This document shows, piece after piece, positions 18,956 through 49,544 of a DNA stretch of 64,000 nucleotides. The translations under genes were made by a program, and so were the position numbers. Origin of the DNA: Branchiostoma floridae (Eukaryota; Chordata; Leptocardii; Amphioxiformes; Branchiostomatidae); the NCBI RefSeq assembly GCF_000003815.2, contig NC_049984.1, forward strand, positions 15,159,929-15,223,928. Reading direction: 5' to 3'. Positions within the stretch are counted from its first letter, which is position 1. Every line of letters starts with the position of its first letter. The notes under the pieces were generated by a model. It made no database searches, had not been told where the DNA came from, and was given only the letters and a program-made list of their open reading frames with translations.

Positions 18956-21304
18956 ATGCAAGGTTTGCGTACAGAGAAAGGGGATGTCTGTAAAATGTGG
19001 CGACGAAGTAGAACAATAGCCATATTGTTCTTGTTTCTCTTGTCAGTAGCCTGCGAGGCTACCTATACAAATGCCTCGCGTTTTCCTCAGTGTAAGAAAG
19101 CTGATTGGCGAGATTGTGTGCCTTTAATAGAGAGATCCGGGGCTGTTTCCTCGGGCACATGTGTCCTATGTGGGGCCCTGCATGAGGATATGACCTCTAG
19201 AAGCCCCTTCTCGTTTCTTTCTGGTGCTGATATTGTGGCAATAAGGGGATATCCTTTCCATGTCTTGTCGGCAAAGAAGCTCGCACCGCTGGATCATTCT
19301 GTGGTTGGTACTTTGGCTCTGATAGATGCAAATATCGCTGATGTGATGAACGGGACCTTCGCTGAGTTTTCCATCCTCCAACACCTGTCCCTAGATTCTA
19401 ACAGGTTGACAGATGTCAAGAAGAATTGGTTCACTGGCTTGAAGAATCTCTATGTGCTGATTTTGTCCAACAACAAGATCACACACATAGAGCCAGGGTT
19501 CTTCGTGCACTTACCTCGCCTACGTGTATTGGATCTAGAAAACAACATGTTACGGGTTGTAGACCCTGACTGGCTATTTGGACTCAAAGGTAGTATAACA
19601 CTGTACTTGAAGTCGAATGAAATCAAAAGCATTTCCCCGGCGTCATTCCAACATCTACAGCTGGCCTGGTTAGACCTGAGGAGCAATGATCTGTCATGTT
19701 TGGATGAAGATGTGCTTAGGGGACAGTCTTGGCTTTCAAGGCTGCATGTCAGCAGTGGTATGTTGTCATCTGCCCGTGGTGTTGTACATGCAAGACCACA
19801 CGGCGGAATGATGTGGAGCATAGATCGGATAGCCAGTGTATTCAGAGGGTCGGTAACAATGGTTGTTCGGGTACCGAAGTTCATATTTTGTGTCAAGTAC
19901 AATGCTCAGGAAGTCTCGTTTGGATGGAAGTTCGATTCATCGAATAATGTGGTTAGTAACGTCGACTTAGGAACGGTCATCCCTGGTATGTCATGTGGTG
20001 ATTATGAGAGTCCACTGAGTACGATCTCTATCCAAACCCCTGTAGTTGTCCTGGCTACTGATGGCTCATTGGCGGCACACAAACTGACCCAGAACACGCT
20101 TGATCAGTGCAGGCAGGTTTGGGAATACGGAGGTGGTGTTACGGTGGGCCTGGGGGGAGAGTCAGTCTTCCGAATGGTTTCAATTGCCACAGAAAATACA
20201 TCGTCTGCAGATGTTGCGATGTCATTTGTCGAGACAAAAGACACCAGCACACTCACCACCGAAGAACACACCGCAAACATAAACGCCACACATGAGAACA
20301 CAAGGAACATCACCTGCATTCTTCTCACTGGAGGCAAGCACACGAGATCGTTCTTCATTGTTTCCCCTGTTATACACCAGACCCACACAAAAGAAACCAC
20401 TTACAGAAGCACAACTGAACAATCCAGCAGCATGACACTCTACCCTGAAACTACAGAGAAAGACTACACATCTTCAAAAGCTAGGAAGTACTCTACACAG
20501 GCGAGTACCTCACCAGGACCAGATCGTGTGGTACCTGCAACACCACCTCATGTTCTTATCTTAGTTGTTCTCTCGGCAGTGGTCGGTCTGGTGGTGTCGT
20601 CAGTCTTGATATGGAAGTTGTGTTCCAAGGATGAGCGGGCCAGTGTCGATGCGCACGTTTGGACTATTCCTCCTGGCATTGCCTTCCCCGGGTTGCTGAG
20701 GTCTGCTTCCCTCCCTGCATGTTCAAACAAGTTGTCGTCGAATGAGTTAGCTTCCTGGAGGTCATTACCCACTGTTCTGCATCCCATCGAACCTACTTAC
20801 AGTGAGATTCCAGATAACATAGCTTCTGCTCAGAGACCCCTGCCTGGCCTCCCAAATGTATACTGGGAGATCCCGGACGATGCCATCTCAGCTTCCCTCC
20901 CAGTGCGCACTCCTTGGGATGCGGAATCGTGCAGGTCATTGCCAGCAGTTCTCCCGTCTAGCGAGCCCAACTACAGCCAGATCCCCGATCACTTGGCCGC
21001 AGCCCAGCGCCCTCTGCCTGCTTTTCCTAATCACGAACCTGTTGCACAGTGGCCTCTGCCTGCCCAACCACACACCTACAGTGAGATACCAGACGATGAG
21101 GATAGCGGACCCATCCTTTCTATGATGCTGCTGCCGAGTTTTTCATTCGTGTCGTCGGACAAAATCGACGTTTCCGTCAGACTAACGACATTACCTCCAG
21201 CAGACACCGGTCTGGAAGACCCATTGCTAGTTATGGATCGGCAGTACAGACGAAATCCGAGCATAGTCCCTTCTACAGAATGGCTCACGAGGTCCAAGGT
21301 ATAA
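18956..21304 (+). CDS. LRR transmembrane receptor, copy A (tail frameshifted)
   Basis: The ATG at 18956 aligns with start codons in copies B and C; a second ATG at 18995 (AAAATGT) is a better context and would also leave a signal peptide (RTIAILFLFLLSVACEA). Cysteine-rich N-cap at residues 46-72, about six leucine-rich repeats at 117-250, a cysteine-bearing region, a Thr/Ser-rich stalk with several N-x-S/T sites, a TM helix at about 532-555 and a Pro-rich cytoplasmic tail. The tail has YxxI motifs at Tyr615, 636, 673 and 708 and RPLPGLP (627-633) and RPLPAFP (685-691), close to the class I SH3 consensus. It looks like a cell-surface receptor that recruits SH2 and SH3 adaptors; the ligand is unknown. 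Relative to B and C one base is missing at about 21114, so the last 63 codons are read out of frame and the repeat tail is lost. Confidence 0.85.
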   Translation: MQGLRTEKGDVCKMWRRSRTIAILFLFLLSVACEATYTNASRFPQCKKADWRDCVPLIERSGAVSSGTCVLCGALHEDMTSRSPFSFLSGADIVAIRGYPFHVLSAKKLAPLDHSVVGTLALIDANIADVMNGTFAEFSILQHLSLDSNRLTDVKKNWFTGLKNLYVLILSNNKITHIEPGFFVHLPRLRVLDLENNMLRVVDPDWLFGLKGSITLYLKSNEIKSISPASFQHLQLAWLDLRSNDLSCLDEDVLRGQSWLSRLHVSSGMLSSARGVVHARPHGGMMWSIDRIASVFRGSVTMVVRVPKFIFCVKYNAQEVSFGWKFDSSNNVVSNVDLGTVIPGMSCGDYESPLSTISIQTPVVVLATDGSLAAHKLTQNTLDQCRQVWEYGGGVTVGLGGESVFRMVSIATENTSSADVAMSFVETKDTSTLTTEEHTANINATHENTRNITCILLTGGKHTRSFFIVSPVIHQTHTKETTYRSTTEQSSSMTLYPETTEKDYTSSKARKYSTQASTSPGPDRVVPATPPHVLILVVLSAVVGLVVSSVLIWKLCSKDERASVDAHVWTIPPGIAFPGLLRSASLPACSNKLSSNELASWRSLPTVLHPIEPTYSEIPDNIASAQRPLPGLPNVYWEIPDDAISASLPVRTPWDAESCRSLPAVLPSSEPNYSQIPDHLAAAQRPLPAFPNHEPVAQWPLPAQPHTYSEIPDDEDSGPILSMMLLPSFSFVSSDKIDVSVRLTTLPPADTGLEDPLLVMDRQYRRNPSIVPSTEWLTRSKV

Positions 21305-22215
21305 GAGCCCGTAGACAGATGAGGACAGCTTTGGTATCCCCGCCTGCTGACCAAAGTGTGAAGACCTACATCAACACCACAGATGCAATCCTGTCCAGGG
21401 GTCAAGATGTCACGAGAGCGCATATCGACTTCCTCACATTGCCTGATACCTACTGGCCTTGGAAGATCCGAGCAGATGGACCCCGCCACACACAATTTAG
21501 GCGTTCGTCCCTCCCGCTCGTCACGCTACCAAACACCTACTGGCCTTGGGAGATTCCGGGGGACGGAACCCATGATACACAACGGCGTACGTCCCTCCCA
21601 CTCGTCACACCACTAAACACCTACTGGCCAGGGGAGAGAACCTGTAGCACACCACGACGTGCGTCCCTCCCTCTTGTCACACCACCAAACACCTACTGGC
21701 CATTGGAGATTTCGGGGGAGGGAACCCGTAACACACCAAGGCGCGCGTCCCTTGTCACACTACCAAACACCTACTGGCCTTGGGAGATTACAGGGGAGGG
21801 AACCTGTAGCACACCACGACGTGCGTCCCTCCCTCTTGTCACACCACCAAACACCTACTGGCCTTGGGAGATTCGGGAGGAGGGAACCCGTAACACACCA
21901 CGGCGTGCGTCCCTCCCTCTCGTCACACTGCCTAACACCTACTGGCCTTGGGAAATTTCGGAGGTGGGAACACATAACACACCACGGCGTGCGTCTCTTC
22001 CCTCTGTCACACTACCAAACACCTACTGACCTTGGGACATACCGGAGAAGGGAACTCGTAACACACCACGGCGTTCCTCCCTTCCCCTTGTCACACTACC
22101 AAACACCTACTGGCCTTGGGAAATTTCGAAGGAGGGAACCCGTAACACACCACGGCCCTCGTCCCTTGTAACACTACCAAACACCTACTGGCCTTGGGAG
22201 ATCCCGGGGGAGTAA
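21115..22215 (+). pseudogene. Out-of-frame remnant of the copy A receptor tail with 10 repeat units
   Basis: In the original frame this stretch would encode the rest of the cytoplasmic tail, matching copies B and C (for example EVQGIRARRQMRTALVSPP). It is followed by ten roughly 28-codon units with RRAS or RRSS near the start and NTYWPWEI in the middle. Units 3 and 4 vary (YWPGER, YWPLEI). In unit 8 the TGG after TAC is TGA (22027-22029), an in-frame stop. The same frame continues through two more units to TAA at 22213-22215. The 1-base deletion at 21114 disconnects it from the receptor frame. Confidence 0.75.
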
Positions 22216-26732: not shown

Positions 26733-29643
26733 GGTATGTGAAATAATAAGCGTAGCATGCTGAGTGTCATTTTATGCACTTATAATCATAGCATGAAGGT
26801 TGCAAATAAACTTCGCTATAATCAAAGCGTACCTTAAAACACGATTATGTATAATACACATAAGCACAGAAACTATACATATATTGTTACATCCTAAAAC
26901 ATTTGATTACTGTGATTAAGAATACGATTTATAAGGCCGTTCATAGTTGGACGTTTAAAATGTGCAGAAATCAAGATAATGTTCTTTAGTAGGTGCATAA
27001 CGTTATATGTATGTGGAAGTAAAAGTAGCACTAATGTTCAATATAGTCAAACATTTTGTCACAATTATTTCTCTTATGCTTCAGTGGGCATTATAGTGTT
27101 TTGTCACATGTTTGGTGGTACCGGTATGGCATTACATAGTATACGCCATCAGCAAAGGGCTAATTGAATTTCTTAGGCTTTGTGCGTTGCAATCATAACG
27201 CTACAATATTCATGTGTGAAAGTAGTGGCACGGCATATGACAGTGGCAACCAGTGAAATGAGCAAAAAAAGCTAAAATGATGTGATTACCATCTAAATAA
27301 TGAGTTTGCACCGTCTTTTGGGAAGCAATGAACTGTGACCGCCAGGCCTCAAAATATTGGAGTAAAAAGATAAAGAACATCAGGTGGTAGAAAACCTACA
27401 AAAACACAAAGCAAAACACGTTTGGGGTAATATCATATCCCTGGCTTTCGTTAAACCCAGAGTCAACACTGGAACGGAATGTACTTGTATTCAAGTTTCT
27501 TGTGAATCATAAGAAGTCTTTTGTATTGGGTACTAATGTGTCTGGCACACCACAGCGCCACCCCCACCCCCACCCCCCGCCCTCACATAATGATAATATA
27601 ATGTGCAGTGATGTAGTTTCTGGATCGCTGATCCAGTCTGGAACTAGGAGTCACGGTTTGTGGCTATCCGGCTGTCGGCTTCAAGGTGGAAGACAATTAA
27701 AGACGCCACAGTGTCTCTAGGAGTGTTCTGTATGCCTTGTTCTGCAATGATGAAAAGCTACCAGTTCCGAACTAACAACCCATCTCTATGATATATCAGA
27801 ACCCTTTCTCTAAGAACAGAAATGTTGGGGTGTTCGATATGCAACTTCATACGATATCATATGCATAAGCAATTTTCTCTCTGCGTACCTGTGACTAGGT
27901 GTGGAACATCTGTTAGAAGTAGGAGCTATGCTCTTGAATCATCGTTAAGCATGGTTAAGTCCATCGCTTCACTTTAAGTCTTGTCAATGCAAATGATACA
28001 GTTCAGTACGAAACCACAAGTGTTAGTGACCTGTGTCATGAGTCATCATGTTGTAAACATGCACAAAAAATGCATGCAGTACAGATGGCAAGACTGGTGA
28101 ATTCATCACGCTCACATTTGGTTGCAAGTGACACTACAACGGAAGCATTCATTTGTGACAGGTCACCAAGTGTTATGTACAATAACGTTCTGAATGGTGA
28201 CTTTGAGCACGTCCTCAGCGTTTACGACACCACGATATCATTTGGATTTGGCTCAGTGGGACTCATGAAGGTTGATTTCGTCTGCCTATCTACTGACTTC
28301 ACGTATTCAAATTTGAGAGACGAAGGCAATGGACAATACCACAGTTCAGCTACAAGACCTGCTGTTTACTTTTGTGTACAACCTCAGTAGGGATTTATGT
28401 TCGTCATACCATTGTACCAAGGCTCTGACATGTCACAGCTCATTGTATTTTTAGACACAATTTGTAAGTAGCCACCCTCCCTCATTTAGGTTGACTTGAA
28501 TTCTATAGAAAAAGACCACTGTCCCACATATCCAACCATGGCACAACCTTCTCCACACCGTAGTTCCACGGTTGGGGATTAGTCGTAAGCAAGGTCATTT
28601 GTGGTTGGGAGTTGGTCGGCAAGGTTGCCTGACTAGTCTTTAAAATTAGTCTGCACAAGTCGAAAATGAACTTTGAAAAATTAAAGATGAGAAAGTCTTA
28701 TTCCATGTTGCTACTACCAGCCCATCACGTGCACACACCTTGGTTATGTAGTGAAGCAAGGTTGGCAGCAAGGTTGGGAAAACGTCCTGAATGTGTGACA
28801 GGGACTTTAATCAGTCTCCTCTGAACCAAGGACATTATTTGATCGTACTGGTGCCTATACTAGTGTAGTATGGAATAAGGAATGCGTTGGTGGTAATTGT
28901 GTCCCGTGCAGCACATGTCTTACAGCGTACTCATGTTCACTTTACTTCTTATGTAAAATTCTAACTGTATTTGACTTGATGACCAAAGGTACCTTTTGTT
29001 GTTATGTCAAATGTTATCGAAGTGAAAAATAAAAAAATGAATAAACTAGCACATATAACATACTTGTCACATATATATACATATGTATGTACCTAGCTGA
29101 TCCTTGTATATTCAGTCTAAAGTAATTAAGTCATGTTAAAAAGTGCTATTTTTTTAACTAGAACTATTTTTGAGATTATTTGTAAAGCATCGAATGACGC
29201 AATGTAGACTACAAGTGTTTGGAAGGAAAGTTACTTGTATTATAGCGAGAATGATGATGTTTGTAATAAATCTATCGATGAATCCGTGGACGTATATGAT
29301 TCATATTCAAAGCGTCATTGTACAAATGTTTCTATCCATGCAGTGTTTTGTGATACCCACAAGTGAACCCACATTATGAATGTGTAAATGCTGATCACTT
29401 CACAGCTTACAATAGAGACGTAACGAATATAAAATCAATGTAATGTTCACTGCTTGTATGTGATATATTTCAGCAAATAAACTTGTGAGTGATGTGATTT
29501 AACATATGTCGTGGACCTGATTGTGTTGTCGTCTAAGCTTATCTAGTCATAAACCCTACCATATGATTCTGTTGGTGGGACTACACTAGTAGTACATACT
29601 AATAGTACTAATAATGCATGCAGTCCTAATGCTAACCCGATCT
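26733..29643. other. Spacer A, part 2
   Basis: This stretch is nearly identical to 41294-44205. A 106-codon open frame at 28070-28390 is kept in spacer B (42629-42949) but the homologous stretch of spacer C (54080-54280) has an in-frame stop and large changes, so no gene is called. A C-rich run near 27550-27590 differs in length between spacers. Confidence 0.55.
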
Positions 29644-29743: not shown

Positions 29744-31651
29744 CTCTCTCTAGGATTTTAAAACGCCAGTGTATATATATATATACATACATTTCTTTGT
29801 AGTGAAATGGACCATTGGTATGATTCAGACTGAACAGGCCCAGCAGACGAACTGGACCTGATCCTCTGGACCTGAACCGGACCTGGACCTGAAGAAAATG
29901 GTATCGTGGTAGACTGTATCTGCATGTAACCCTCTGCCGATAATACGTCCACTGGTACGTATGTACATGAATATGTACTTTGGCTTTCCACAATCCGTCA
30001 CTCTTGGACAGTAGAAATATGCCATCTAGCGGATGCCTTGTCAACTGGAGTAAGTTGTTTAAAAGCTGCACTAACCCGCTAATGTTTTATTCCCTCTACA
30101 CGTTTTCTAACGTCGGTCCATGTTGTTCCTAACAGGTTTCAGAAAAAAATTGCTTTCAAATATGCCCCAAAACCGCAACACACTGAAAGACACATCGTAC
30201 CAATCGTCTTGTTTCAGCTTTAGCAAAACATACAGTTAATTACTTGACTTGTAATTACATTTTTCTCAAAATTAGTCTGGGTTTCTGGCCATCTCTTGAA
30301 AACCAAGAGTCCGTAGGGCACAAACCTCCGCAAAGAAGTTATTATTATAGCGCCCGAGGTTTGAGAGGTGTGTGATACCCAAGAAGATCAATTTATTGGA
30401 AATCGAATGACTTACGTACACATTATTTGTTTACTTTTGTAATAAGGTGCCTGTCCAAAGAGCCATGTACCACTGAAAAATATACAGAGGAGAGCAAGAT
30501 TAACAAAAAAACAAGTGACCGTAGGTAACATACTCTATGATGTAATTATGGTTCATGTTAGTTGTGTTATTTTCTGTGGTGTGTGACTTGGTGTTTATAT
30601 CGCATACAGAACAAATCACATTGACTTATACCAAAAGCTTATTTAAAAGCTAACGTACCTAACGTATTACTGCCAAATGTAAACACAATCCTGTACGCAT
30701 CAACAGCAAAACCAGGATCTCAAAAGAACGACACCAAATGAAACAGCCACACAGCTTCAAAATGCATACCCGAGACCCACACCATCATATAAACAGCCGG
30801 AATAGTGACATCTGTGAACAGCTGACAACACGACGTGCACAAAACACGCAAATCACGCAACATCTGCTTGACAGTATCCAATTACCGCAAGGCCTAGATA
30901 ACGCAGACCCGGACCAATATATCGAAATTTTGTACATTTTGTCGGGGTGATTTTTAAAATTATTACGTTGATTATAAAAACAGCTTGCGCAAAAAAAGTG
31001 CATCATCGTCCAACTCAGTGCAGAGGACCGGCCAAACTACATATGAATGCTACAACGGCAACATATAGATACAGCTATATACGCGCGTTACATTGATTGA
31101 CAAAACTAAAACTCTGTTGCCTCCGGTCACAGAGCAAAAATAACCAAGCCGGGATCTAACCTCTTGATGGAGAGTAAGTCAACCATCCCCCGGAAGCGAA
31201 AGCTTATACATGTACGACACACTGTCCATTAGGGAAGAAACGGCTGTTTACTGCGATGTATCACATTACCTGTAACATGAGGTGTCGGGACTGTAATGGT
31301 AATGTCTATAGTTAATGTCTTGAGTTAAAGGTGCGCTTGCATAGACAGACACAAAAACAGTACCACCATTGGAGGTCACTGACTGTCTTGAAGAAGGTAA
31401 TAATATTTGCTATCTCGTCTGTCGCATGTTTTGTCAGTGCTCCAAATGCATAAAAACATATCATCAGTCTGTTTAATAAATGCAGTGATCGTACAGACGT
31501 CACTGCATGAGGGGTACAAAGCATCTTCGGTAGAGAAAACTATATCCTTAGTACAGTGAAAAAAGGGATCAGCTAGCAGACAATTGGTCCTTAATGCTTA
31601 CATCATCGACTTATCAAGTATGCCAAATGCCGGTAAGTGACAATTCATCTG
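29744..31651. other. 5' flank of the gap-cut LRR gene fragment
   Basis: This block is nearly identical to 33290-35149 and 44470-46249. Only at 29750-29895 is it different: a segment with repeated GGACCTGA words replaces the TTCCACTATCTCATAGG segment of the other two copies. No exon is supported except the LRR gene start at 31652. Confidence 0.55.
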
Positions 31652-31711
31652 ATGCAATGTTTACGTACGGATAAACGGGACGTCTGTAAAATATGGCGGC
31701 GAAGTAGAACC
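31652..31711 (+). pseudogene. 5' fragment of an LRR receptor gene cut by a gap
   Basis: The first 20 codons match copies B and C (MQCLRTDKRDVCKIWRRSRT) and then run into 340 N. Like copy C it has isoleucine (ATA) where A and B have the second ATG. After the gap the sequence resumes not in the gene but in the spacer, at a point homologous to 28680. Either a roughly 9.7-kb deletion or a misjoin of alleles explains this. Confidence 0.7.
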
Positions 31712-33125: not shown

Positions 33126-34446
33126 CATACATGTATATAGTCTGCAAATACACCCCCCCCCCAATCAGAGACCTAGGACAGGCCCAGCAGACGAAATTCC
33201 ACTATATACATGTATATAGTCTGCAAATACACCCCCCCCCAATCAGAGACCTAGGACAGGCCCAGCAGACGAAATTCCACTATCTCATAGGGGTGTGGAA
33301 AATGGATGGAGAATATCCAGAAAATGGTATCGTGGTAGACTGTATCTGCATGTAACCCTCTGCCGATAATACGTCCACTGGTACGTATGTACATGAATAT
33401 GTACTTTGGCTTTCCACAATCCGTCACTCTTGGACAGTAGAAATATGCCATCTAGCGGATGCCTTGTCAACTGGAGTAAGTTGTTTAAAAGCTGCACTAA
33501 CCCGCTAATGTTTTATTCCCTCTACACGTTTTCTAACGTCGGTCCATGTTGTTCCTAACAGGTTTCAGAAAAAAATTGCTTTCAAATATGCCCCAAAACC
33601 GCAACACACTGAAAGACACATCGTACCAATCGTCTTGTTTCAGCTTTAGCAAAACATACAGTTAATTACTTGACTTGTAATTACATTTTTCTCAAAATTA
33701 GTCTGGGTTTCTGGCCATCTCTTGAAAACCAAGAGTCCGTAGGGCACAAACCTCCGCAAAGAAGTTATTATTATAGCGCCCGAGGTTTGAGAGGTGTGTG
33801 ATACCCAAGAAGATCAATTTATTGGAAATCGAATGACTTACGTACACATTATTTGTTTACTTTTGTAATAAGGTGCCTGTCCAAAGAGCTATGTACCACT
33901 GAAAAATATACAGAGGAGAGCAAGATTAACAAAAAACAAGTGACCGTAGGTAACATACTCTATGATGTAATTATGGTTCATGTTAGTTGTGTTATTTTCT
34001 GTGGTGTGTGACTTGGTGTTTATATCGCATACAGAACAAATCCCATTGACTTATACCAAAAGCTTATTTAAAAGCTAACGTACCTAACGTATTACTGCCA
34101 AATGTAAACACAATCCTGTACGCATCAACAGCAAAACCAGGATCTCAAAAGAACGACACCAAATGAAAACAGCCACACAGCTTCAAAATGCATACCCGAG
34201 ACCCACACCATCATATAAACAGCCGGAATAGTGACATCTGTGAACAGCTGACAACACGACGTGCACAAAACACGCAAATCACGCAACATCTGCTTGACAG
34301 TATCCAATTACCGCAAGGCCTAGATAACGCAGACCCGGACCAATATATCGAAATTTTGTACATTTTGTCGGGGTGATTTTTAAATTATTACGTTGATTAT
34401 AAAAACAGCTAGCGCAAAAAAAGTGCATCATCGTCCAACTCAGTGC
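32052..34446. other. Second copy of the spacer end (5' flank of gene B)
   Basis: The sequence is nearly identical to 28680-30990 in direct orientation and to 43240-45600. At 33129-33283 a segment of about 76 bp starting ACATGTATATAGTCTG is present twice in tandem, unlike the other copies. CT and TA microsatellites lie at 33045-33125. Confidence 0.6.
33045..33125. repeat. CT/GTCT and TA microsatellite
   Basis: Runs of CTCT and CTGT are followed by a short TA run. The homologous position in the copy C flank is longer (44235-44410). Confidence 0.9.
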
Positions 34447-35149: not shown

Positions 35150-38100
35150 ATGCAATGTTTACGTACGGATAAACGGGACGTCTGTAAAATGTGGCGGCGA
35201 AGTAGAACAACAGCCATGTTGTTCATTTTTCTCTTGGCAGCAGCCTGCGAAGCTACGTATGCAAATGCATCGCCTTTCCCTGAGTGTAACACAGCTGGAT
35301 GGGAATATTGTATGCCTTTCAAAGACAGACCGGGAGTTACTGCGTCCGGCACATGTGTCCTATGTGGGGCCCTCAATGAAGATGTGACCTCAAGAAGCCC
35401 CTTCTCTTTTCTTGCTGGGGCTAATAGTGCGGCAATTAAGGGGTATCCATTCCATGTCTTGTCGGCAAAGAAGCTCGCACCGCTTGAACATTCTGTGGTT
35501 GGTACTTTGGCTCTGATAGATGCAAATATCACTGATGTCATGAACGGGACCTTCGCTTCGTTTTCCTTCCTAGGTTACCTGTCCCTAGACTCTAACATGT
35601 TGACAGATGTCAAAAAGAACTGGTTCACTGGCTTGAAGAATCTCTTTGTGCTGATTTTGTCCAACAACGAGATCACAAACATAGAACCAGGGGTCTTCGT
35701 ACACGTACCTCGCCTAAGTGTATTGAATCTAGAGAACAACATGTTACGGGTTGTGGACCCTGACTGGCTATTTGGACTGAAAGGTCACAGAATAACACTG
35801 TACTTAAAGTCGAACGAAATCAAAAGCATTTCCCCGGCGTCATTCCAACACCTACAGCTGGGCTGGTTAGATCTGAGAAGCAATGATCTGTCATGTTTGG
35901 ATGAAGATGTGCTTCGGGAACAGTATTATTCTCTCTCAAGGCTGCATGTCAGCAGTGGTATGTTGTCATCTGCCCGTGGTGTTGTGCATGCAAGGCCACA
36001 CGGCGGAATGATGTGGCGCCTAGATCGGATAGCCAGTGTACTCAGAGGGTTAGTAACAATGATCGTTCAGGTACCAAAATTCTTATTCTGTGTCAGGTAC
36101 AATGCTCATGAAGTCTCCTTTGGATGGAAGTTCGATTCATCGAATGATGTGGTTAGTAACGTCGACTTAGGAACGGTCGCCCTGGTAATGTCATAGTGGT
36201 GATTTGGGGAGTTCACTCAGTACNNNNNNNNNNNNNNNNNNNNNNNNNNNNNNNNNNNNNNNNNNNNNNNNNNNNNNNNNNNNNNNNNNNNNNNNNNNNN
36301 NNNNNNNNNNNNNNNNNNNNNNNNNNNNNNNNNNNNNNNNNNNNNNNNNNNNNNNNNNNNNNNNNNNNNNNNNNNNNNNNNNNNNNNNNNNNNNNNNNNN
36401 NNNNNNNNNNNNNNNNNNNNNNNNNNNNNNNNNNNNNNNNNNNNNNNNNNNNNNNNNNNNNNNNNNNNNNNNNNNNNNNNNNNNNNNNNNNNNNNNNNNN
36501 NNNNNNNNNNNNNNNNNNNNNNNNNNNNNNNNNNAGCACACGAATTTGTTCTTCACTGTTTCCCCTGTTATACATCAGACCCACACAAAAGAAACCACTA
36601 CAGAAAGCACAACTGAACAATCCAGCAACATGACACCATACCCTGGAACTACAGAGAAAGACTACACATCTTCAGAAGCTACTAAGTACTCTACACTTCA
36701 GGTGAGTACCTCACCAGTGCCAGATCGTGTGGTGCCTACAACAACACCACGCCATGTTCTCATCTTAGTTGTTGTCTCGGCAGTGGTCGGTCTGGTGGTG
36801 TTGTCAATATTGATATGGAAGTTGTGCTCCAAGGATGAGCGGGCCAGCGTCGATGCGCACGTTTGGACTATCCCTCCTGGCATTGCCTTCCCCGGTTTGC
36901 TGAGGTCGGCTTCCCTCCCTGCATGTTCAAACAATATGTCGTCGAATGAATTAGCTTCCTGGAGGTCATTACCCACTGTTCTGCATTCCATTGAACCAAC
37001 TTACAGTGAGATCCCAGATAACATAGCTTCTGCTCAGAGACCCCTGCCTGGCCTCCCAAATGTATATTGGGAGATCCCAGACGATGCCATCTCAGCTTCC
37101 CTCCCAGTGCGCACTCCTTGGGATGCGGAATCGTGCAGGTCATTGCCAGCAGTTCTCCCGTCTAGCGAGCCCAACTACAGCCAGATCCCAGATCACTTGG
37201 CCGCAGCCCAGCGCCCTCTGCCTGCTTTCCCAAATCACGAACCCGGTGCACAGTGGCCTCCGCCTGCCCAACGACACACCTACAGTGAGATCCCAGATGA
37301 TGAAGAGAGCGGACCCATGCCTTTCTATGATGCTGCCGCCGAGTTTTCCATTCGTGTCGTCGGACAAAATCGACGTTTCCGTCAGACTAACGACATTACC
37401 TCCAGCAGACACCGGTCTGGAAGACCCATTGCTAGTTATGGATCGGCAGTACAGACGAAATCCGAGCATAGTCCCTTCTACAGAATGGCTCACGAGGTCC
37501 AAGGCATAAGAGCCCGTAGACAGATGAGGACAGCTTTGGTATCCCCGCCTGCTGCCCAAAGTGTGAAGACCTACGTCAACACCACAGATGCAATCCTGTC
37601 CAGGGGTCAAGATGTCACGAGAGCTCATATCGCCTTCCTTACAATGTCAAATACTGCTCTCGTCACACCACCTAACACCTACTGGCCTTGGGAGGACCCA
37701 GGGGAGGGAACAAGTTGCACACCACAGCGTGCGTCCATCTCCACACTACCGAACACCTACTGGCCTTGGGGGATCCGGCCATGGATGGGAACCAATAACA
37801 CACCACGGCGTGCGTCTCTCCCTCTCGTCACACTACCAAACACCTACTGGCCATGGGAGATTCCAGGGCAGGGAACCCGTAATACACCACGGCGTGCGTC
37901 CCTGCCTCTTGTCACACCACCAAACACCTACTGGCCTTGGGAGATTCCGGAGGAGGGAACCCGTAACACACCACGGCGTGCGTCCCTTCCCCTTGTCACA
38001 CTTCCAAACACCTACTGGCCTTGGGAGATTCGGGAGGACGGGGGAACCCGTAACACACCACGGCGTGCGTCCCTTCCCCTTCTCAAACTTCCAAACACCT

Positions 38101-38213
38101 ACTGGCCATGGGAGATTCGGGAGGAGGGAACCCGTAATACACCACGGCGTGCGTCCCTTCCCCGTGTCACACTACCAAACACCTACTGGCCATGGGAGAT
38201 CCCGGGGGAGTAA
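35150..38213 (+). CDS. LRR transmembrane receptor, copy B (interrupted by a gap)
   Basis: The ATG at 35150 aligns with 18956 and 46250. The ectodomain to about codon 340 is nearly identical to copy C (for example Ala for Thr in GVT[A/T]SGTC). Just before the 311-N gap three single-base differences (loss of C, gain of A twice near 36182-36196) create a stop; they sit at a contig edge and may be errors. The gap length equals the 311 bases present in copy C, and the frame after the gap is open to TAA at 38211-38213. The tail keeps the YxxI and RPLPGLP/RPLPAFP motifs and ends in seven in-frame 28-codon repeats (NTYWPWEI cores, RRAS). It is the only copy whose repeat tail is fully open, so it best represents the intended protein. 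The first two repeat units differ from those of A and C. Confidence 0.8.
36224..36534. other. Assembly gap, 311 N, inside gene B
   Basis: The homologous segment of copy C is 47323-47633, also 311 bases, so the gap size is well estimated. Confidence 0.9.
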
Positions 38214-39292
38214 AATCATTATACATCACCTTGGGTGATCCCTGGGAAGGAGTACATAACATACAACGGCGTGCGCCCCCCCTCTCACTACTTAACACGA
38301 ACTGACATTGGGGGAATCCTGGTGAAGGAACCCGGAATTCACCTTAAAAAAACAACCCTGTANNNNNNNNNNNNNNNNNNNNNNNNNNNNNNNNNNNNNN
38401 NNNNNNNNNNNNNNNNNNNNNNNNNNNNNNNNNNNNNNNNNNNNNNNNNNNNNNNNNNNNNNACTGCCAAAGCATTTTGTGCATATTTGCAATTTTAGCA
38501 CAAATCCAGCACGACTGGCAAACCATTATCACAACTTTATGAGAACCTTGCTTGTTACCTTCATTGGCTAGATTGCAAGATATTGAAAGTTAGTTGCAGT
38601 CTAAATGCCTTTTATTCTATGTGAGCAACATCATTTGCAAACCTGACGCCCTTTTCATAATAGATGTACCCAAGAAAGGAAGGATTCCCATGGTATTTGG
38701 TCTGCGGGTAGCTTAGACAGACATGGAAAAAGAAAAGAAAATGCGGATTATAGATTTGGGACTTAATCTGCATAGAAATCGGAAAATTTGATAATACCAA
38801 TGTATTTCAAAATAGGACTTCTATATGTGTTACATATGCATGACAGGTGGAACATTTACATATGCCAATACTGCAAATAAGAGCCTAATTCGCATGATTG
38901 ATACGAAAGTGCCGGAATACCTCAGTGGTAAATGATAGGAATTTTATACTTGTGACATGTGCAAGTAAGTTTACGTTCCGCATCATTATGCATAAATTAT
39001 GTAAATGTAAGATATTTGCATAACTTATGATATGAGCTACATGTATAAGCATGGCATTCTGTCAAAGGAAAGGACTTTCATACATGCAATATGTATGGTT
39101 GTGGTAGAGAAGACCATCACTCAAAACAGTTTATTTTACTTTTCAAATACTTTGCTTTCAAGTGATCAAAATGTATGCTATTCTTACAAGAAGGAAATCT
39201 CAGCAAATGCAGTGGTCTTGTCATAGCCTCATTTCTCTCCACTGTACCGAGATATTTGGTATACACTAAAACACTCCGTTCGCGACTTACCA
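38214..39292. other. 3' flank of gene B and start of spacer B
   Basis: It matches the flank of gene A from 38463 on almost base for base. A 100-N gap lies at 38363-38462. No gene seen. Confidence 0.6.
38363..38462. other. Assembly gap, 100 N
   Basis: The gap replaces the segment homologous to about 22363-22480 in spacer A. Confidence 0.9.
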
Positions 39293-40038
39293 CTCGGTTG
39301 AGCTAAGGCGGCCCAGGCACGCTCGATTTGTGTTCGAGTTCCGGCGCGTGTCGTCTTGTCCAGCCGAATTCGAACCATGTTCGATGATGTTCTATTACGT
39401 AATTCGAATAGAACGCGAGTTCGAACCTGTGGTTATTTGTGACTTTTTAATGTAAACACGCACCGTAAAGAGCTTTTATCCTTGGTGGGTGTTTGTGCGG
39501 ATCAGTTTGTGACATATACGGCTTCATGCCCGGCTCAAAATAAGAGTATTGATCTTTGTAGTACTCATGTTTTACTTATTATCCCATTCTTATCAAAACT
39601 GTCCAAGGGTATTTTGTGTAATTATTCAATGTTTTTAACTTTGGTGCATTTTCAACCAAAAATTTAAAAAAGATAGTCGTTTCTGATGTTTTTGGCCCAA
39701 AAAAAGCAATGTAATCCTAATTTCAAACAAAATACCGTACCTCTGGATAAAATGATAAGTATGAGGTAGGCGTATAAGTATAAGTATGCCGTACCCGGCC
39801 CTCTGACAATATAGACGAAATTGGCCAGATATAAGCATCACTTTTTTTAACCAAAATGTATATTTCTAACCGCAAATCCGGTATGTAAAAAAAACAAAAT
39901 CACAAGTATTCAATGTGTTTCAAGTAGTACTAAAACTGTGCGAAGTTTCATCGTAGTGCGACCGAGCAATCAAAAGTTACATTCATATGTATAGAATACT
40001 ACTTTACTACAAGCCTGGGCCGCCTTAAGCCAACCGAG
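39293..40038. mobile_element. Terminal-inverted-repeat element in spacer B
   Basis: It is the duplicate of the element at 23311-24058, with the same termini. It differs at 39770-39835, where about 60 bp are replaced by a copy of sequence found about 340 bp downstream. Confidence 0.65.
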
Positions 40039-43000
40039 ATATAGTACAGGAGTCTGCTACCTTATTGTGTCAAAATAGGTAGACAGAATCAATCTGTCGT
40101 CTTAGTCCGTACCCGGCCCTCTGAAAATATAGAAGAAATTGGCCAGATAGTGTGCATGACTTGACACAGCAACGTGCAACTCATTGACCTACTTTTACAC
40201 CCTGGTAGTTTATTCTCCCTGCTTGGTTAATTTATTCACCAGCCAAATGACTCTGGTGGAGATTACTGTTTTNNNNNNNNNNNNNNNNNNNNNNNNNNNN
40301 NNNNNNNNNNNNNNNNNNNNNNNNNNNNNNNNNNNNNNNNNNNNNNNNNNNNNNNNNNNNNNNNNNNNNNNNNNNNNNNNNNNNNNNNNNNNNNNNNNNN
40401 NNNNNNNNNNNNNNNNNNNNNNNNNNNNNNNNNNNNNNNNNNNNNNNNNNNNNNNNAGATTCACATGTTTGTACGAAGAAATTACACACTTGAACAAATC
40501 TATGAAACTTGGGCATTCTAGAGAAATGCAGTACAATTGCAGGTCATTAATTTGTGTATTGTATGTATTGTGTATGTATTGTATTGTATTGTATTTGATG
40601 TATTTGGGTACTTTCTTTGATGTCTATACTTTCACCAAAACAAGTAGGGATGCTTCTGAGAATTCAAACCATGATCCCAGAAAAGAAAAAAAGAAACAAA
40701 TAAAACAAAAAAGTACAAGGTGTAATGTACCCATAAAGCAACTATTGCAATATATCATAGGTCCATACAGGACTCCTTAAAGTGTTATCCAGTGCTTAAG
40801 TAAAAAAAAACGGAAGAAAAGGAGCTATTGCATTGAATGCTTTCGTCAAATTACGTTTCTTTGAGATAGAAGATTGTGTTTATTCTTTGTTGGGTAGGGG
40901 ATATATTTACCTGAAAGTATTGATTAGCCAAATGAAAATTTCAACTTTTTATGGTAAATGAAAACTTCAACATTTTATGGTAATCAGTATCAGTGGGACT
41001 TAAAAGTGGTAGGTGATCTGAAAAGAAGAGATTACGACTTAATTGCTCTGATACTGATTTTGACCCACTTGTATATATTTCATGGATATTATATTTAGGT
41101 GGTCTTCAATTGTTGCATTGAACAAGAGTGTAAGGTACGTAGAACTAGAAAGCTGAGAGTCATTTTATGTTCGAAGCACTTGTAGAAAGACAATGTTATA
41201 ACTAACTGCGTGCGTTGATATTATACTTGTTAATGTTTGAGCCCGTAAGTATTCAGGTGGTCTTTATAATTATAACCTTGAACATGATTATACGGTATGT
41301 GAAATAATAAGCGTAGCATGCTGAGTGTCATTTTATGCACTTATAATCATAGCATGAAGTTGCAAATAAACTTCGCTATAATCAAAGCGTACCTTAAAAC
41401 ACGATTATGTATGATACACATAAGCACAGAAACTATACATATATTGTTACATCCTAAAACATTTGATTACTGTGATTAAGAATACGATTTATAAGGCCGT
41501 TCATAGTTGGACGTTTAAAATGTGCAGAAATCAAGATAATGTTCTTTAGTAGGTGCATAACGTTATATGTATGTGGAAGTAAAAGTAGCACTAATGTTCA
41601 ATATAGTCAAACATTTTGTCACAATTATTTCTCTTATGCTTCAGTGGGCATTATAGTGTTTTGTCACATGTTTGGTGGTACCGGTATGGCATTACATAGT
41701 ATACGCCATCAGCATAGGGCTAATTGAATTTCTTAGGCTTTGTGCGTTGCAATCATAACGCTACAATATTCATGTGTGAAAGTAGTGGCACGGCATATGA
41801 CAGTGGCAACCAGTCAAATGAGCAAAAAAAGCTAAAATGATGTGATTACCATCTAAATAATGAGTTTGCACCGTCTTTTGGGAAGCAATGAACTGTGACC
41901 GCCAGGCCTCAAAATATTGGAGTAAAAAGATAAAGAACATCAGGTGGTAGAAAACCTACAAAAACACAAAGCAAAACACGTTTGGTGTAATATCATATCC
42001 CTGGCTTTCGTTAAACCCAGAGTCAACACTGGAACGGAATGTACTTGTATTCAAGTTTCTTGTGAATCATAAGAAGTCTTTTGTATTGGGTACTAATGTG
42101 TCTGGCACACCACAGCGCCACCCCCATCCTACAACCCCCGCCCTCACATAATGATAATATAATGTGCAGTGATGTAGTTTCTGGATCGCTGATCCAGTCT
42201 GGAACTAGGAGTCACGGTTTGTGGCTATCCGGCTGTCGGCTTCAAGGTGGAAGACATTAAAGACACCACAGTGTCTCTAGGAGTGTTCTGTATGCCTTGT
42301 TCTGCAATGATGAAAAACTACCAGTTCCGAACTAACAACCCATCTTTATGATATATCAGAACCCTTTCTCTAAGAACAGAAATGTTGGGGTGTACGATAT
42401 GCAACTTCATACGATATCATATGCATAAGCAATTTTCTCTCTGCGTACCTGTGACTAGGTGTGGAACATCTGTTAGAAGTAGGAGCTATGCTCTTGAATC
42501 ATCGTTAAGCATGGTTAAGTCCATCGCTTCACTTTAAGTCTTGTCAATGCAAATGATACAGTTCAGTACGAAACCACAAGTGTTAGTGACCTGTGTCATG
42601 AGTCATCATGTTGTAAACATGTACAAAAATGCATGCAGTACAGATGGCAAGACTGGTGAATTCATCACGCTCACATTTGGTTGCAAGTGACACTACAACG
42701 GAAGCATTCATTTGTGACAGGTCACCAAGTGTTATGTACAATAACGTTCTGAATGGTGACTTTGAGCACGTCCTCAGCGTTTACGACACCACGATATCAT
42801 TTGGATTTGGCTCAGTGGGACTCATGAAGGTTGATTTCGTCTGCCTATCTACTGACTTCACGTATTCAAATTTGAGAGACGCAGGCAATGGACAATACCA
42901 CAGTTCAGCTACAAGACCTGCTGTTTACTTTTGTGTACAACCTCAGTAGGGATTTATGTTCGTCATACCATTGTACCAAGGCTCTGACATGTCACAGCTC

Positions 43001-44234
43001 ATTGTATTTTTAGACACAATTTGTAAGTAGCCACCCTCCCTCATTTAGGTTGACTTGAATTCTATAGAAAAAGACCTCTGTCCCACATATCCAAACATGG
43101 CACAACCTTCTCCACACCGTAGTTCCACGGTTGGGGATTAGTCGTAAGCAAGGTCATTTGTGGTTGGGAGTTGGTCGGCAAGGTTGCCTGACTAGTCTTT
43201 AAAAGTAGTCTGCACAAGTCGAAAATGAACTTTGAAAAATTAAAGATGAGAAAGTCTTATTCCACGTTGCTACTACCAGCCCAGCACGTGCACGGACCAT
43301 GGTTATGTAGTGAAGTAAGGTTGGCACCAAGGTTTTGAAAACGTCCTAAATGTGTGACAGGGACTTTAATCAGTCTCCTCTGAACCAAGGACATTATTTG
43401 ATCGTACTGGTGCCTATACTAGTGTAGTATGGAATAAGGAATGCGTTGATGGTAATTGTGTCCCGTGCAGCACATGTCTTACAGCGTACTCATGTTCACT
43501 TTACTTCTTATGTAAAATTCTATCTGTATTTGACTTGATGACCAAAGGTACCTTTTGTTTTTATGTCAAATGTCATCGAAGTGAAAAATAAAAAAATGAA
43601 TGAACTAGCACATATAACATACTTGTCACATATATATATACATATGTATGTACATAGCTGATCCTTGTATATTCAGTCTAAAGTAATTAAGTCATGTTAA
43701 AAAGTGCTATTTTTTTTAACTAGAACTATTTTTGAGATTATTTGTAAAGCATCGAATGACGCAATGTAGACTACAAGTGTTTGGAAGGAAAGTTACTTGT
43801 ATTATAGCGAGAATGATGATGTTTGTAATGAATCTATCGATGAATCCGTGGACGTATATGATTCATATTCAAAGCGTCATTGTACAAATGTTTCTATCCA
43901 TGCAGTGTTTTGTGATACCCACAAGTGAACCCACATTATGAATGTGTAAATGCTGATCACTTTACAGCTTACAATAGAGACGTAACGAATATAAAATCAA
44001 TGTAATGTTCACTGCTTGTATGTGATATATTTCAGCAAATAAACTTGTGAGTGATGTGATTTAACATATGTCGTGGACCTGATTGTGTTGTCGTCTAAGC
44101 TTATCTAGTCATAAACCCTACCATATGATTCTGTTGGTGGGACTACACTAGTAGTACATACTATTAGTACTAATAATGCATGCAGTCCTAATGCTAACCC
44201 GATCTGTCAACTGTAACCAAACGTATTTCCAACA
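40039..44234. other. Spacer B, part 2
   Basis: It is nearly identical to 24059-25316 plus 26733-29643 and lacks the LINE found in spacer A. A gap of 184 N lies at 40273-40456. No gene is supported. Confidence 0.6.
40273..40456. other. Assembly gap, 184 N
   Basis: The homologous segment of spacer A is 24293-24482, 190 bases. Confidence 0.9.
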
Positions 44235-46249: not shown

Positions 46250-49048
46250 ATGCAATGTTTACGTACGGATAAACGGGACGTCTGTAAAATATGGCGGCGA
46301 AGTAGAACAACAGCCATGTTGTTCATTTTTCTCTTGGCAGCAGCCTGCGAAGCTACGTATGCAAATGCATCGCCTTTCCCTGAGTGTAACACAGCTGGAT
46401 GGGAATATTGTATGCCTTTCAAAGACAGACCGGGAGTTACTACGTCCGGCACATGTGTCCTATGTGGGGCCCTCAATGAAGATGTGACCTCAAGAAGCCC
46501 CTTCTCTTTTCTTGCTGGGGCTAATAGTGCGGCAATTAAGGGGTATCCATTCCATGTCTTGTCGGCAAAGAAGCTCGCACCGCTTGAACATTCTGTGGTT
46601 GGTACTTTGGCTCTGATAGATGCAAATATCACTGATGTCATGAACGGGACCTTCGCTTCGTTTTCCTTCCTAGGTTACCTGTCCCTAGACTCTAACATGT
46701 TGACAGATGTCAAAAAGAACTGGTTCACTGGCTTGAAGAATCTCTTTGTGCTGATTTTGTCCAACAACGAGATCACAAACATAGAACCAGGGGTCTTCGT
46801 ACACGTACCTCGCCTAAGTGTATTGAATCTAGAGAACAACATGTTACGGGTTGTGGACCCTGACTGGCTATTTGGACTGAAAGGTCACAGAATAACACTG
46901 TACTTAAAGTCGAACGAAATCAAAAGCATTTCCCCGGCGTCATTCCAACACCTACAGCTGGGCTGGTTAGATCTGAGAAGCAATGATCTGTCATGTCTGG
47001 ATGAAGATGTGCTTCGGGAACAGTATTATTCTCTCTCAAGGCTGCATGTCAGCAGTGGTATGTTGTCATCTGCCCGTGGTGTTGTGCATGCAAGGCCACA
47101 CGGCGGAATGATGTGGCGCCTAGATCGGATAGCCAGTGTACTCAGAGGGTTAGTAACAATGATCGTTCAGGTACCAAAATTCTTATTCTGTGTCAGGTAC
47201 AATGCTCATGAAGTCTCCTTTGGATGGAAGTTCGATTCATCGAATGATGTGGTTAGTAACGTCGACTTAGGAACGGTCGCCCCTGGTATGTCATGTGGTG
47301 ATTTGGGGAGTTCACTCAGTACGATCTCTATCCAAACCCCGTTAGTTGTCGTAGCTACTGACGGCTCTCTGACAGACAAACTGGTTCTTAACACGCTTGA
47401 TCAGTGCAGGCAGGTTTGGGAATACGGAGGTGGTGTAACGGTGGGCCTGGGGGGAGAGTCAATCTTCCGACTGGTTTCCATTGCCACAGAGAATACAGCC
47501 TCTGCAGATGTGGGGATGTCATTTATCCAGACAAAAGACACCAGCACACTCACCACCAAAGAACCCACCGCAAACATAAACGCCACACATGACAACACAA
47601 TGAACATCACCTGTATTCTTCTCAACAAAGGCGAGCACACGAATTTGTTCTTCACTGTTTCCCCTGTTATACATCAGACCCATACAAAAGAAACCACTTA
47701 CAGAAGCGCAACTGAACAATCCAGCAACATGACACCATACCCTGGAACTACAGAGAAAGACTACACATCTTCAGAAGCTACTAAGTACTCTACACTTCAG
47801 GTGAGTACCTCACCAGTGCCAGATCGTGTGGTGCCTACAACAACACCACGTCATGTTCTCATCCCAGTTGTTGTCTCGGCAGTGGTCGGTCTGGTGGTTG
47901 TGGTGGTGTTGTCTATATTGATATGGAAGTTGTGCTCCAAGGATGAGCTGGCCAGCGTCGATGCGCACGTTTGGACTATCCCTCCTGGCATTGCCTTCCC
48001 CGGCTTGCTGAGGTCGGCTTCCCTCCCTGCATGTTCAAACAATATATCGTCGAATGAATTAGCTTCCTGGAGGTCATTACCCACTGTTCTGCATTCCATT
48101 GAACCAACTTACAGTGAGATTCCAGATAACATAGCTTCTGCTCAGAGACCCCTGCCTGGCCTCCCACATGAATACTGGGAGATCCCAGACGATGCCATCT
48201 CGGCTTCCCTACCAGTGCGCACTCCTTGGGATGCGGAATCGTGCAGGTCATTGCCAGCAGTTCTCCCGTCTAGCGAGCCCAACTACAGCCAGATCCCCGA
48301 TCACTTGGCCGCAGCCCAGCGCCCTCTGCCTGCTTTCCCAAATCACGAACCCGGTGCACAGCGGCCTCCGCCTGCCCAACCACACACCTACAGTGAGATC
48401 CCAGATGATGAAGAGAGCGGACCCATGCCTTTCTATGATGCTGCCGCCGAGTTTTCCATTCGTGTCGTCGGACAAAATCGACGTTTCCGTCAGACTAACG
48501 ACATTACCTCCAGCAGACACCGGTCTGGAAGACCCATTGTTAGTTATGGATCGGCAGTACAGACGAAATCCGAGCATAGTCCCTTCTACAGAAAGGCTCA
48601 CGAGGTCCAAGGCATAAGAGCCCGTAGACAGATGAGGACAGCTTTGGTATCCCCGCCTGCTGCCCAAAGTGTGAAGACCTACGTCAACACCACAGATGCA
48701 ATCCTGTCCAGGGGTCAAGATGTCACGAGAGCTCATATCGCCTTCCTCACATTGCCTGATACCTACTGGCCTTGGGAGATCCGAGCAGATGGACCCCGCC
48801 ACACACAATTTAGGCGCGCGTCCCTCCCGCTCGTCACGCTACCAAACACCTACTGGCCTTGGGAGATTCCGGGGGCCGGAACCCATGATACACAACGGCG
48901 TACGTCCCTCCCCCTCGTCACACCACTAAACACCTACTGGCCAGGGGAGAGATGGAACTGGTATGAGACCAAGGGGTGGGTCCCTTCCCCGTGTCACACT
49001 ACCAAACACCTACTGGCCATGGGAGATTCGGGAGGAGGGAACCCGTAA
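46250..49048 (+). CDS. LRR transmembrane receptor, copy C
   Basis: The ATG at 46250 is used because the second Met of copies A and B is isoleucine (ATA) here. Domain order: signal peptide (TTAMLFIFLLAAACEA), Cys-rich cap, six LRRs, Thr-rich stalk, TM helix and tail with four YxxI motifs and two RPLPxxP motifs. The TM (about 47851-47937) is three residues longer than in copy B because of a 9-base in-frame insertion giving LVVVVVLSILIW. The frame stays open through the first three 28-codon repeats. Then a net +1 shift around 48949-48990 turns the third unit into YWPGERWNWYETKGW and ends the protein at 49046-49048. Signalling through SH2 and SH3 adaptors is inferred from motifs. It lies about 11.1 kb after copy B in the same orientation. 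Confidence 0.87.
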   Translation: MQCLRTDKRDVCKIWRRSRTTAMLFIFLLAAACEATYANASPFPECNTAGWEYCMPFKDRPGVTTSGTCVLCGALNEDVTSRSPFSFLAGANSAAIKGYPFHVLSAKKLAPLEHSVVGTLALIDANITDVMNGTFASFSFLGYLSLDSNMLTDVKKNWFTGLKNLFVLILSNNEITNIEPGVFVHVPRLSVLNLENNMLRVVDPDWLFGLKGHRITLYLKSNEIKSISPASFQHLQLGWLDLRSNDLSCLDEDVLREQYYSLSRLHVSSGMLSSARGVVHARPHGGMMWRLDRIASVLRGLVTMIVQVPKFLFCVRYNAHEVSFGWKFDSSNDVVSNVDLGTVAPGMSCGDLGSSLSTISIQTPLVVVATDGSLTDKLVLNTLDQCRQVWEYGGGVTVGLGGESIFRLVSIATENTASADVGMSFIQTKDTSTLTTKEPTANINATHDNTMNITCILLNKGEHTNLFFTVSPVIHQTHTKETTYRSATEQSSNMTPYPGTTEKDYTSSEATKYSTLQVSTSPVPDRVVPTTTPRHVLIPVVVSAVVGLVVVVVLSILIWKLCSKDELASVDAHVWTIPPGIAFPGLLRSASLPACSNNISSNELASWRSLPTVLHSIEPTYSEIPDNIASAQRPLPGLPHEYWEIPDDAISASLPVRTPWDAESCRSLPAVLPSSEPNYSQIPDHLAAAQRPLPAFPNHEPGAQRPPPAQPHTYSEIPDDEESGPMPFYDAAAEFSIRVVGQNRRFRQTNDITSSRHRSGRPIVSYGSAVQTKSEHSPFYRKAHEVQGIRARRQMRTALVSPPAAQSVKTYVNTTDAILSRGQDVTRAHIAFLTLPDTYWPWEIRADGPRHTQFRRASLPLVTLPNTYWPWEIPGAGTHDTQRRTSLPLVTPLNTYWPGERWNWYETKGWVPSPCHTTKHLLAMGDSGGGNP

Positions 49049-49544
49049 CACACCACGGCGTTCGTCCCTTCCCCTTGTCACACTACCAAACACCTACTGG
49101 CCATGGGAGATTCCGGGGGAGGGAACCCGTAACACACCACGGCGTTCGTCCCTTCCCCTTGTCACACTACCAAACACCTACTGGCCTTGGGAGATTCCGG
49201 AGGAGGGAACCCGTAACACACCACGGCGTGCGTCCCTCCCTCTTGTCACACCACCAAACACCTACTGGCCTTGGGAAATTTCGGAGGTGGGAACACATAA
49301 CACACCACGGCGTGCGTCCCTGCCCCTCGACACACTACCTAGCACCTACTGGCCTTGGGAGATTTCGGAGGTGGGAACCCGTAGCACACCACGGCGTGCG
49401 TCCCTTCCCTCTGTCACACTACCAAACACCTACTGACCTTGGGACATACCGGAGAAGGGAACTCGTAACACACCACGGCGTTCCTCCCTTCCCCTTGTCA
49501 CACCACCAAACACCTACTGGCCTTGGGAAATTTCGGGGGAGTAA
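49049..49544 (+). pseudogene. Out-of-frame repeat tail of copy C
   Basis: In the shifted frame (from about 48963) further 28-codon units continue with RRSS or RRAS and NTYWPWEI cores. Unit 9 has TGA (49434-49436) in place of the first TGG, at the same place and with the same following codons (PWDIPEKG) as unit 8 of copy A. One more unit follows, ending in TAA at 49542-49544. In total ten YW-type cores can be counted in copy C. Confidence 0.75.

Follow-up and report, generated by a model that had tools for sequence, protein, structure and literature searches.

We analysed a 64,000-nucleotide stretch of the Branchiostoma floridae genome (assembly GCF_000003815.2, contig NC_049984.1, positions 15,159,929 to 15,223,928; hereafter the window). 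It carries three copies (A, B and C) of a leucine-rich repeat (LRR) receptor gene, and each copy ends in a tandem array of a unit of about 28 residues, TYWPWEIxxEGTRNTPRRASLPLVTLPN. The features of these genes, of which copy B is followed most closely here, are given below.

Receptor genes and repeat arrays of the window

35150..36223, + strand: signal peptide and LRR ectodomain of copy B (open reading frame (ORF) and alignment to copy C; Pfam was run on A and C)
36759..36815, + strand: transmembrane segment of copy B, LILVVVSAVVGLVVLSILI (Kyte-Doolittle 19-residue mean 3.25)
36903..36920, + strand: RSASLP motif of copy B (sequence)
36996..37019, + strand: PTYSEIPD tyrosine motif of copy B (sequence)
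37038..37058, + strand: RPLPGLP of copy B, class I SH3-ligand-like, between two tyrosine motifs (sequence and family rows)
37065..37082, + strand: YWEIPD tyrosine motif of copy B (sequence)
37173..37193, + strand: NYSQIPD tyrosine motif of copy B (sequence)
37212..37232, + strand: RPLPAFP, second SH3-ligand-like site of copy B (sequence)
37275..37298, + strand: HTYSEIPD tyrosine motif of copy B (sequence)
37677, 37755, 37842, 37926, 38010, 38097 and 38181, + strand: TYWPW starts of copy B (translation)
37677..38213, + strand: unit array of copy B, six complete units and a partial last unit with TAA (repeat finding and unit parsing)
38214..38362, + strand: decayed unit-like DNA 3' of the copy B stop, up to the next assembly gap (nhmmer in part, the remainder by eye)
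18956..22212, + strand: copy A, LRR receptor, array at 21448-22212 (ORFs, Pfam and alignment)
46250..49541, + strand: copy C, LRR receptor, array at 48761-49541 (ORFs, Pfam and alignment)
31637..31711, + strand: N-terminal fragment of a fourth copy, entering a gap (ORF list, by eye)

The copies share one layout, consisting of a signal peptide, LRRs, a Ser/Thr-rich stalk, a single strong hydrophobic segment after the ectodomain and a tail, which in copy B comprises 459 residues. Pfam LRR_8 was found in copy C (E 3.3e-39) and copy A (E 5.1e-31), and the copy B ectodomain is 99% identical to that of copy C over the aligned stretch. The strong hydrophobic segment lies C-terminal to the ectodomain in A, B and C, and a segment of the same type was found in 21 of the 22 family rows, the 22nd being copy B itself, for which the script misplaced the transmembrane segment. 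By their ectodomain and their transmembrane segment with a tail, these genes encode LRR transmembrane receptors, the topology being predicted from hydropathy alone. The open frames are intron-free as read, and introns in the untranslated regions are possible. AlphaFold2 modelling of the ectodomain (three sequences) gave a mean pLDDT of 29 and a pTM of 0.20 and was unusable for fold comparison.

The translated frame of copy B at 36537-38213 contains the seven TYWPW starts at its C-terminus, followed by TAA at 38211-38213, and Tandem Repeats Finder places an 84-base array at 37657-38210. The original prediction, made from the DNA letters of the window, had the repeat as the C-terminus of an LRR receptor; this is borne out by the LRR_8 match and by the position of the array at the end of a long open frame, while translation, repeat finding and frame statistics agree that the unit is real C-terminal coding sequence. 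The same prediction counted seven consecutive 28-codon units in copy B. Seven starts are indeed present, but the six complete units measure 78, 87, 84, 84, 87 and 84 nt (26, 29, 28, 28, 29 and 28 residues) and the last is partial. Nor does each unit hold the RRAS site ascribed to it: RRAS occurs in five places only, with PQRASIS in its stead in unit B1 and a last unit that is partial. Unit number varies among the copies as stated, with seven starts in B and ten in each of A and C. In the DNA that follows the copy B stop, nhmmer returned one match, from about position 38229, with a net indel of -7 (E 2e-10).

A dispersed receptor family and the conservation of its unit

The array marks the C-terminus of many LRR transmembrane receptors, which form a large family scattered over the genome and are each encoded in one long frame. 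The assembly searched comprises 513,431,437 bases in 431 contigs, in which a 14-nt core of the array matched 415 times (248 forward and 167 reverse), compared with 0 and 1 matches for the backward control. A 66-aa array query gave at least 221 matches (150 of 461 candidates scored) and a 79-aa query from the proximal tail at least 169 (150 of 281 candidates scored). Clustered at 3 kb, the listed tail and array matches form at least 93 loci on 19 contigs, of which at least 54 hold both; this locus count is a lower bound, includes a part of the listed array rows and contains one cluster that spans three tail matches several kb apart. The array, known at the outset from three local copies, is present in these, but the genome-wide counts rule out a local oddity. 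One further tail match (G000:C262:33391-33627) lies inside a 5559-aa open frame, perhaps owing to N runs.

A long open frame with the family tail was found in 25 of the 26 stretches fetched, and 23 stretches contain at least one unit. Among the twenty stretches drawn from the pattern list, tail and array occur together in 19; in the remaining one, L016, the pattern matched by chance (NTYWPPV, within a frame of 86 aa). The six taken from the tail list were picked among its weaker matches, and all have the tail, with units in four of them (L030-L033). LRR_8 was present in all 10 members scanned outside the window, including L029, L030, L032 and L034, with no other Pfam family at E 0.01. Genes differ in unit number, from 0 up to about 17. 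An ectodomain tree of 24 members, built without L020, L021, L024 and copy B because these are truncated or gapped, places array-bearing genes in every main clade, and the two array-less genes (L029 and L034) form a supported pair beside the array-bearing L009, L015 and L028. At L030 (G000:C12:18182800-18187800), a proximal RPLPGLPNTYWEIPD module has itself undergone about fivefold amplification, in addition to the 28-mer array.

A hidden Markov model (HMM) of the unit, built from window units only, called 166 domains in 19 genes. The 132 units covering at least 24 of the 28 positions were retained as well covered, and 34 partial ones were dropped. Tyr is aligned in 130 of the 132. As local alignment conceals changes at the ends of units, these ends were extrapolated for all 166 calls; Tyr then stands at position 2 in 158 and is missing there in eight, one of which is the L024 proximal module with a Tyr two residues off; one Tyr-to-His change was seen among the L032 units. 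The gene-weighted match to the consensus over the 132 units is 0.97, 0.99, 0.89, 0.85 and 0.87 for the successive residues of TYWPW and 0.65 and 0.67 for the E and I that follow. It reaches 0.84 and 0.82 at R17 and R18, 0.75 at S20, 0.82 at L21, 0.89 at both P22 and T25, 0.92 at P27 and 0.91 at N28. The Trp pair with Tyr, earlier remarked on as unusual for a cytoplasmic tail, holds insofar as YWPW occurs in 101 of the 132 units, but Thr-Tyr is better kept: in the recent duplicates L018 and L019, most units read TYVQCD or TYMPCD, with both Trp lost and Tyr kept. The proposed RRAS serine site fares similarly: RR.[ST] is found in 82 of the 132 units, but conservation of the Ser falls short of that of the R, L and P around it.

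Coding constraint is evident in both unit length and substitution pattern. Of 24 complete window units, 23 have a length divisible by three, and eight of the nine that depart from 84 nt keep the frame. For the 15 window units that measure exactly 84 nt, pairwise differences fall 213/375/559 by codon position, with a ratio of nonsynonymous to synonymous differences per site (pN/pS) of 0.49 in the TYW frame, as compared with 1.59 and 0.85 in the other frames. Between groups, the corresponding values are 0.66 as compared with 0.97 and 0.93, computed on 94 units, each 28 aa long, that come from 12 loci plus the pooled window; these were picked by a motif pattern that required Tyr and a limited residue set, and conservation tables drawn from them are biased, the HMM-called units giving the better basis. 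With the lowest pN/pS in the TYW frame in the window as well as between genes, a wrong reading frame was rejected. Post-stop units were discarded as a neutral control, as only six were found, four of these in one locus. Comparison of paralogs gave a mixed result: pN/pS was lower in the proximal tail than in the ectodomain in 24 of 35 pairs (medians 0.50 and 0.59). These pairs, which are not mutually independent, are what remained of 210 after filtering for saturation and length.

Possible roles of the repeated tail

The proximal tails of the family carry YxEIPD-type tyrosines together with RPLPxLP and, often, RSASLP (16 of 24 rows in a pattern scan). RPLPxLP was detected by script in 21 of 22 tails, copy B being missed through its misplaced transmembrane segment although it has RPLPGLP and RPLPAFP, and in 22 of the 24 rows of a larger tail table. 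Taken together, YxEIPD, RPLPxLP and RSASLP, a membrane-proximal motif set absent from the original prediction, suggest Src-family kinases as a partner. In several of these tails the unit HMM picks up TYWEIPDD...RSASLP, which suggests, with moderate support, that the 28-aa unit arose from a module of the proximal tail. Scores of at least 5 bits were obtained for 6 of 22 proximal tails (the L027 match lies in the array region) and for 17 of 4400 shuffles; the proximal tails of copies A, B and C score near zero.

A coding repeat with this motif content, located in the tail and conserved across the family, could form part of a kinase-docking tail. The proximal part, with RPLPxLP beside the YxEIPD tyrosines, would dock a Src-family kinase via SH3 and SH2 contacts. 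The related module of the distal array, R-R-x-S-L-P ... L-P-N-T-Y-W-P-W-E-I-P, present one to about seventeen times, would then provide a multivalent docking surface, whose tyrosines could be phosphorylated by the docked kinase and, secondarily, whose RRxS serines by a basophilic kinase; docking capacity would rise with unit number. This is the leading reading, and in it the multivalent docking or phosphorylation platform that the original prediction offered as an inference is retained; we consider the chances of such a Src-family-kinase docking tail with a variable-length Tyr/Ser docking array to be about even. The proposal draws on three precedents, as described in excerpts of the respective papers. 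Lck phosphorylates tail tyrosines, including HDYSEV, of the B. belcheri LRR receptor BbLcLRR, which inhibits Jurkat T-cell activation (PMC8211107). A class I Src SH3 ligand ending RRPLPPLP and placed C-terminal to a substrate Tyr lowers the Km of Src from 28.7 to 4.3 uM (PMC4509517). p130Cas combines a Src-binding RPLPSPP with fifteen YxxP motifs (PMC2956669). Phosphotyrosine readers are encoded in the genome, as shown by 60 SH2 matches.

A number of observations weigh against this proposal. The array Tyr fits no phosphotyrosine pattern scanned, with Y..[ILV], Y..P, Y..M and Y.N each found in 0 of the 132 units. Src kinases favour acidic residues before the Tyr, and the array Tyr is without them. 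Two of the 25 members, L029 and L034, have neither the array nor RPLPxLP. The best shuffle reaches 14.4 with the unit HMM, above the best real proximal-tail score of 9.5. In each of the 12 groups (11 loci and the pooled window), units resemble one another more than they resemble those of other groups, so that the arrays are homogenised and their apparent conservation is inflated and has to be discounted. Finally, copies A, B and C are each frame-disrupted as assembled, none being intact from start to final stop.

The array could instead work through its serines, RRxSLP being a protein kinase A (PKA)-type site and, when phosphorylated, a 14-3-3 site, with 14-3-3 dimers bridging units 28 residues apart to gate or cluster the receptor. 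RR.[ST] occurs in 82 and the relaxed pattern R..[ST].P in 85 of the 132 units, the PKA substrate Kemptide, LRRASLG, has RRASL at its core (PMC4183626, in part), and the proximal RSASLP fits the 14-3-3 mode I pattern RSxpSxP (PMC6770128, in part). However, the Ser is kept less well than R17, R18, L21, P22 and above all the Tyr, and is replaced by Pro in 18 of the 132 units, and we regard this reading as unlikely. Binding independent of phosphorylation, in which TYWPW and the Arg pair bind a folded partner or the inner leaflet of the membrane, or let the tails self-associate, would account for the frequent YWPW, the well-kept Arg pair and an array Tyr outside all phosphotyrosine patterns scanned. 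It sits poorly with L018 and L019, where the Tyr is retained as both Trp are dropped in most units, and likewise seems improbable. A more sceptical reading has the array as a tandem repeat that grew almost neutrally where a disordered tail ends, and that is tolerated without being of use. The spread in unit number, the greater likeness of units within groups and the frames that end at stops inside a unit (L011, L021, L023, A8, C9) are what such growth would leave behind, but it is already weakened, and made very unlikely, by the low in-frame pN/pS in the window and between genes, by the frame-keeping of nearly all off-length window units and by a Tyr that persists across clades with long ectodomain branches. 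TRAF6 ligands follow the consensus P-x-E-x-x-aromatic/acidic, which fits 24 of the 132 units only, and TRAF6-type sites were rejected. A viral or phage origin was also rejected: there was no phage match, and of 64 pattern stretches in viral contigs none was related by tblastn.

It is quite possible, if somewhat short of an even chance, that the three copies in the window are pseudogenes or artefacts of the assembly, which is compatible with a kinase-docking role in the family at large. Compared with B and C, copy A lacks 1 nt at 21114, upstream of the array; copy B has a 1-nt insertion at 36195; copy C contains a frame-breaking 76-nt unit, C3, at 48932-49007; and in-frame TGA codons occur in units A8 and C9. 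As assembled, only the copy B tail reads unbroken into array and stop. N gaps and large near-identical segments surround B and C. On the other hand, comparison of A with C gives a pN/pS of 0.47 over the ectodomain and 0.21 over the proximal tail (0.40 and 0.29 with other segments), and the copy B insertion lies only about 28 bases from an assembly gap (36224-36534). B and C are nearly identical in the ectodomain, two blocks for example matching at 300/300 and 299/300 positions, and their arrays differ in number and order, meaning that arrays evolve faster than ectodomains or that the assembly mixes haplotypes. The segments around A, B and C, listed below, are about 97-99% identical and represent either a recent tandem segmental duplication or unmerged haplotypes.

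22481-24292 and 38463-40272: near-identical segment set 1
26723-29643 and 41285-44205: near-identical segment set 2
29893-31710, 33319-34446 and 44508-46308: near-identical segment set 3

Elsewhere, the window holds a 10-base minisatellite with about 31 copies of GAACGGTTTA (9919-10232), reverse-transcriptase-like frames with FADD and FVDD contexts (17215-18435 and 25264-26547, judged by eye) and, again by eye, a GIY-YIG-like stretch in the frame at 54438-55085 that possibly belongs to a Penelope-like element. A rhodopsin-type G protein-coupled receptor lies on the - strand at 12504-14009 (7tm_1, E 7.6e-15 and 2.5e-05), as two adjoining open stretches of one frame with either one in-frame stop or a short intron between them. 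A long frame on the - strand at 2624-5158 has ankyrin repeats and a CCDC34-type match.

Should the docking tail signal as proposed, an array of repeated linear motifs would take the place that TIR, death or kinase domains have in other receptors, and would do so throughout a large family of an animal that probably stands near the root of the vertebrates. Two questions can then be put to a direct test: does the strength of the signal depend on repeat number, and does amphioxus have, in addition to BbLcLRR, another kind of LRR receptor that feeds Src-family kinases? As a tentative and rather doubtful extension, around a hundred genes, perhaps cephalochordate-only, may signal via a copy-number-variable Tyr/Ser array grown from a Src-kinase docking module, with a repeat number that changes by unequal exchange within and between genes and sets receptor gain.

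Comparison with known systems

The expectation that no described family has this repeat holds across Pfam, NCBIfam, PDB sequences and PMC full text. No Pfam, NCBIfam or PDB-sequence match passed its cut-off, and a known domain as the identity of the unit is rejected on this basis. The copy B tail matches 0 Pfam families, the copy A tail only PF12038, at an E of 0.0036 that is under its cut-off, and the best E among PDB sequences is 0.21. Unit and tail motif strings retrieved no paper from PMC full text, with eukaryotic protein databases, preprints and subscription papers lying outside this search. Among the papers listed on amphioxus LRR receptors and the LRR repertoire, none describes, by title or opening of the abstract, a tail of such a kind, and excerpts of PMC5787515 and PMC2575513 make no mention of a repeat tail. 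The kind of receptor is known, and its repeated tail may be new, an earlier description being possible outside the literature covered.

Pfam scans of the window copies and of the members outside the window found no TIR domain, which sets the family apart from Toll-like receptors. Immunoreceptors with tyrosine-based inhibitory or activation motifs (ITIM or ITAM) are, like the receptors described here, membrane proteins with YxxI motifs in the tail. An ITAM comprises two YxxL/I motifs 6-8 residues apart, whereas 18 residues separate YSEI and YWEI in copy B. The ITIM consensus is S/I/V/L-x-Y-x-x-I/V/L (PMC8211107, in part), whereas EPTYSEI, PNVYWEI, EPNYSQI and RHTYSEI of copy B have P, N, P and H at -2, and the array itself lacks Y..[ILV] throughout. 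In the case of p130Cas/BCAR1, the likeness is one of principle only: a Src-binding RPLPSPP is combined with a repeated-tyrosine substrate domain (PMC2956669, in part), but p130Cas is a soluble scaffold with SH3 and CCH domains, whereas the family here consists of receptors, with no SH3 or CAS family in the Pfam scans of window copies and members and no Y..P in the array. RPLPxLP resembles the class I Src SH3 ligand RPLPPLP (PMC4509517, in part), a likeness of sequence only.

Closer relatives in kind come from amphioxus itself. FrLRR of B. belcheri is an LRR receptor tied to SH2/SH3 signalling via Grb2, but has a folate-receptor domain and a predicted GPI anchor, with no such tail in the excerpts of its description (PMC10199209). 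BbLcLRR, at 699 aa, has a WSC domain, for which the Pfam scans of window copies and members outside the window were negative, and excerpts of its description contain no repeat array (PMC8211107); it is set apart from our family by description, not by sequence comparison. It nevertheless has an LRR ectodomain, one transmembrane segment and several tyrosine motifs in the tail, of which HDYSEV is similar to the HTYSEI found here.

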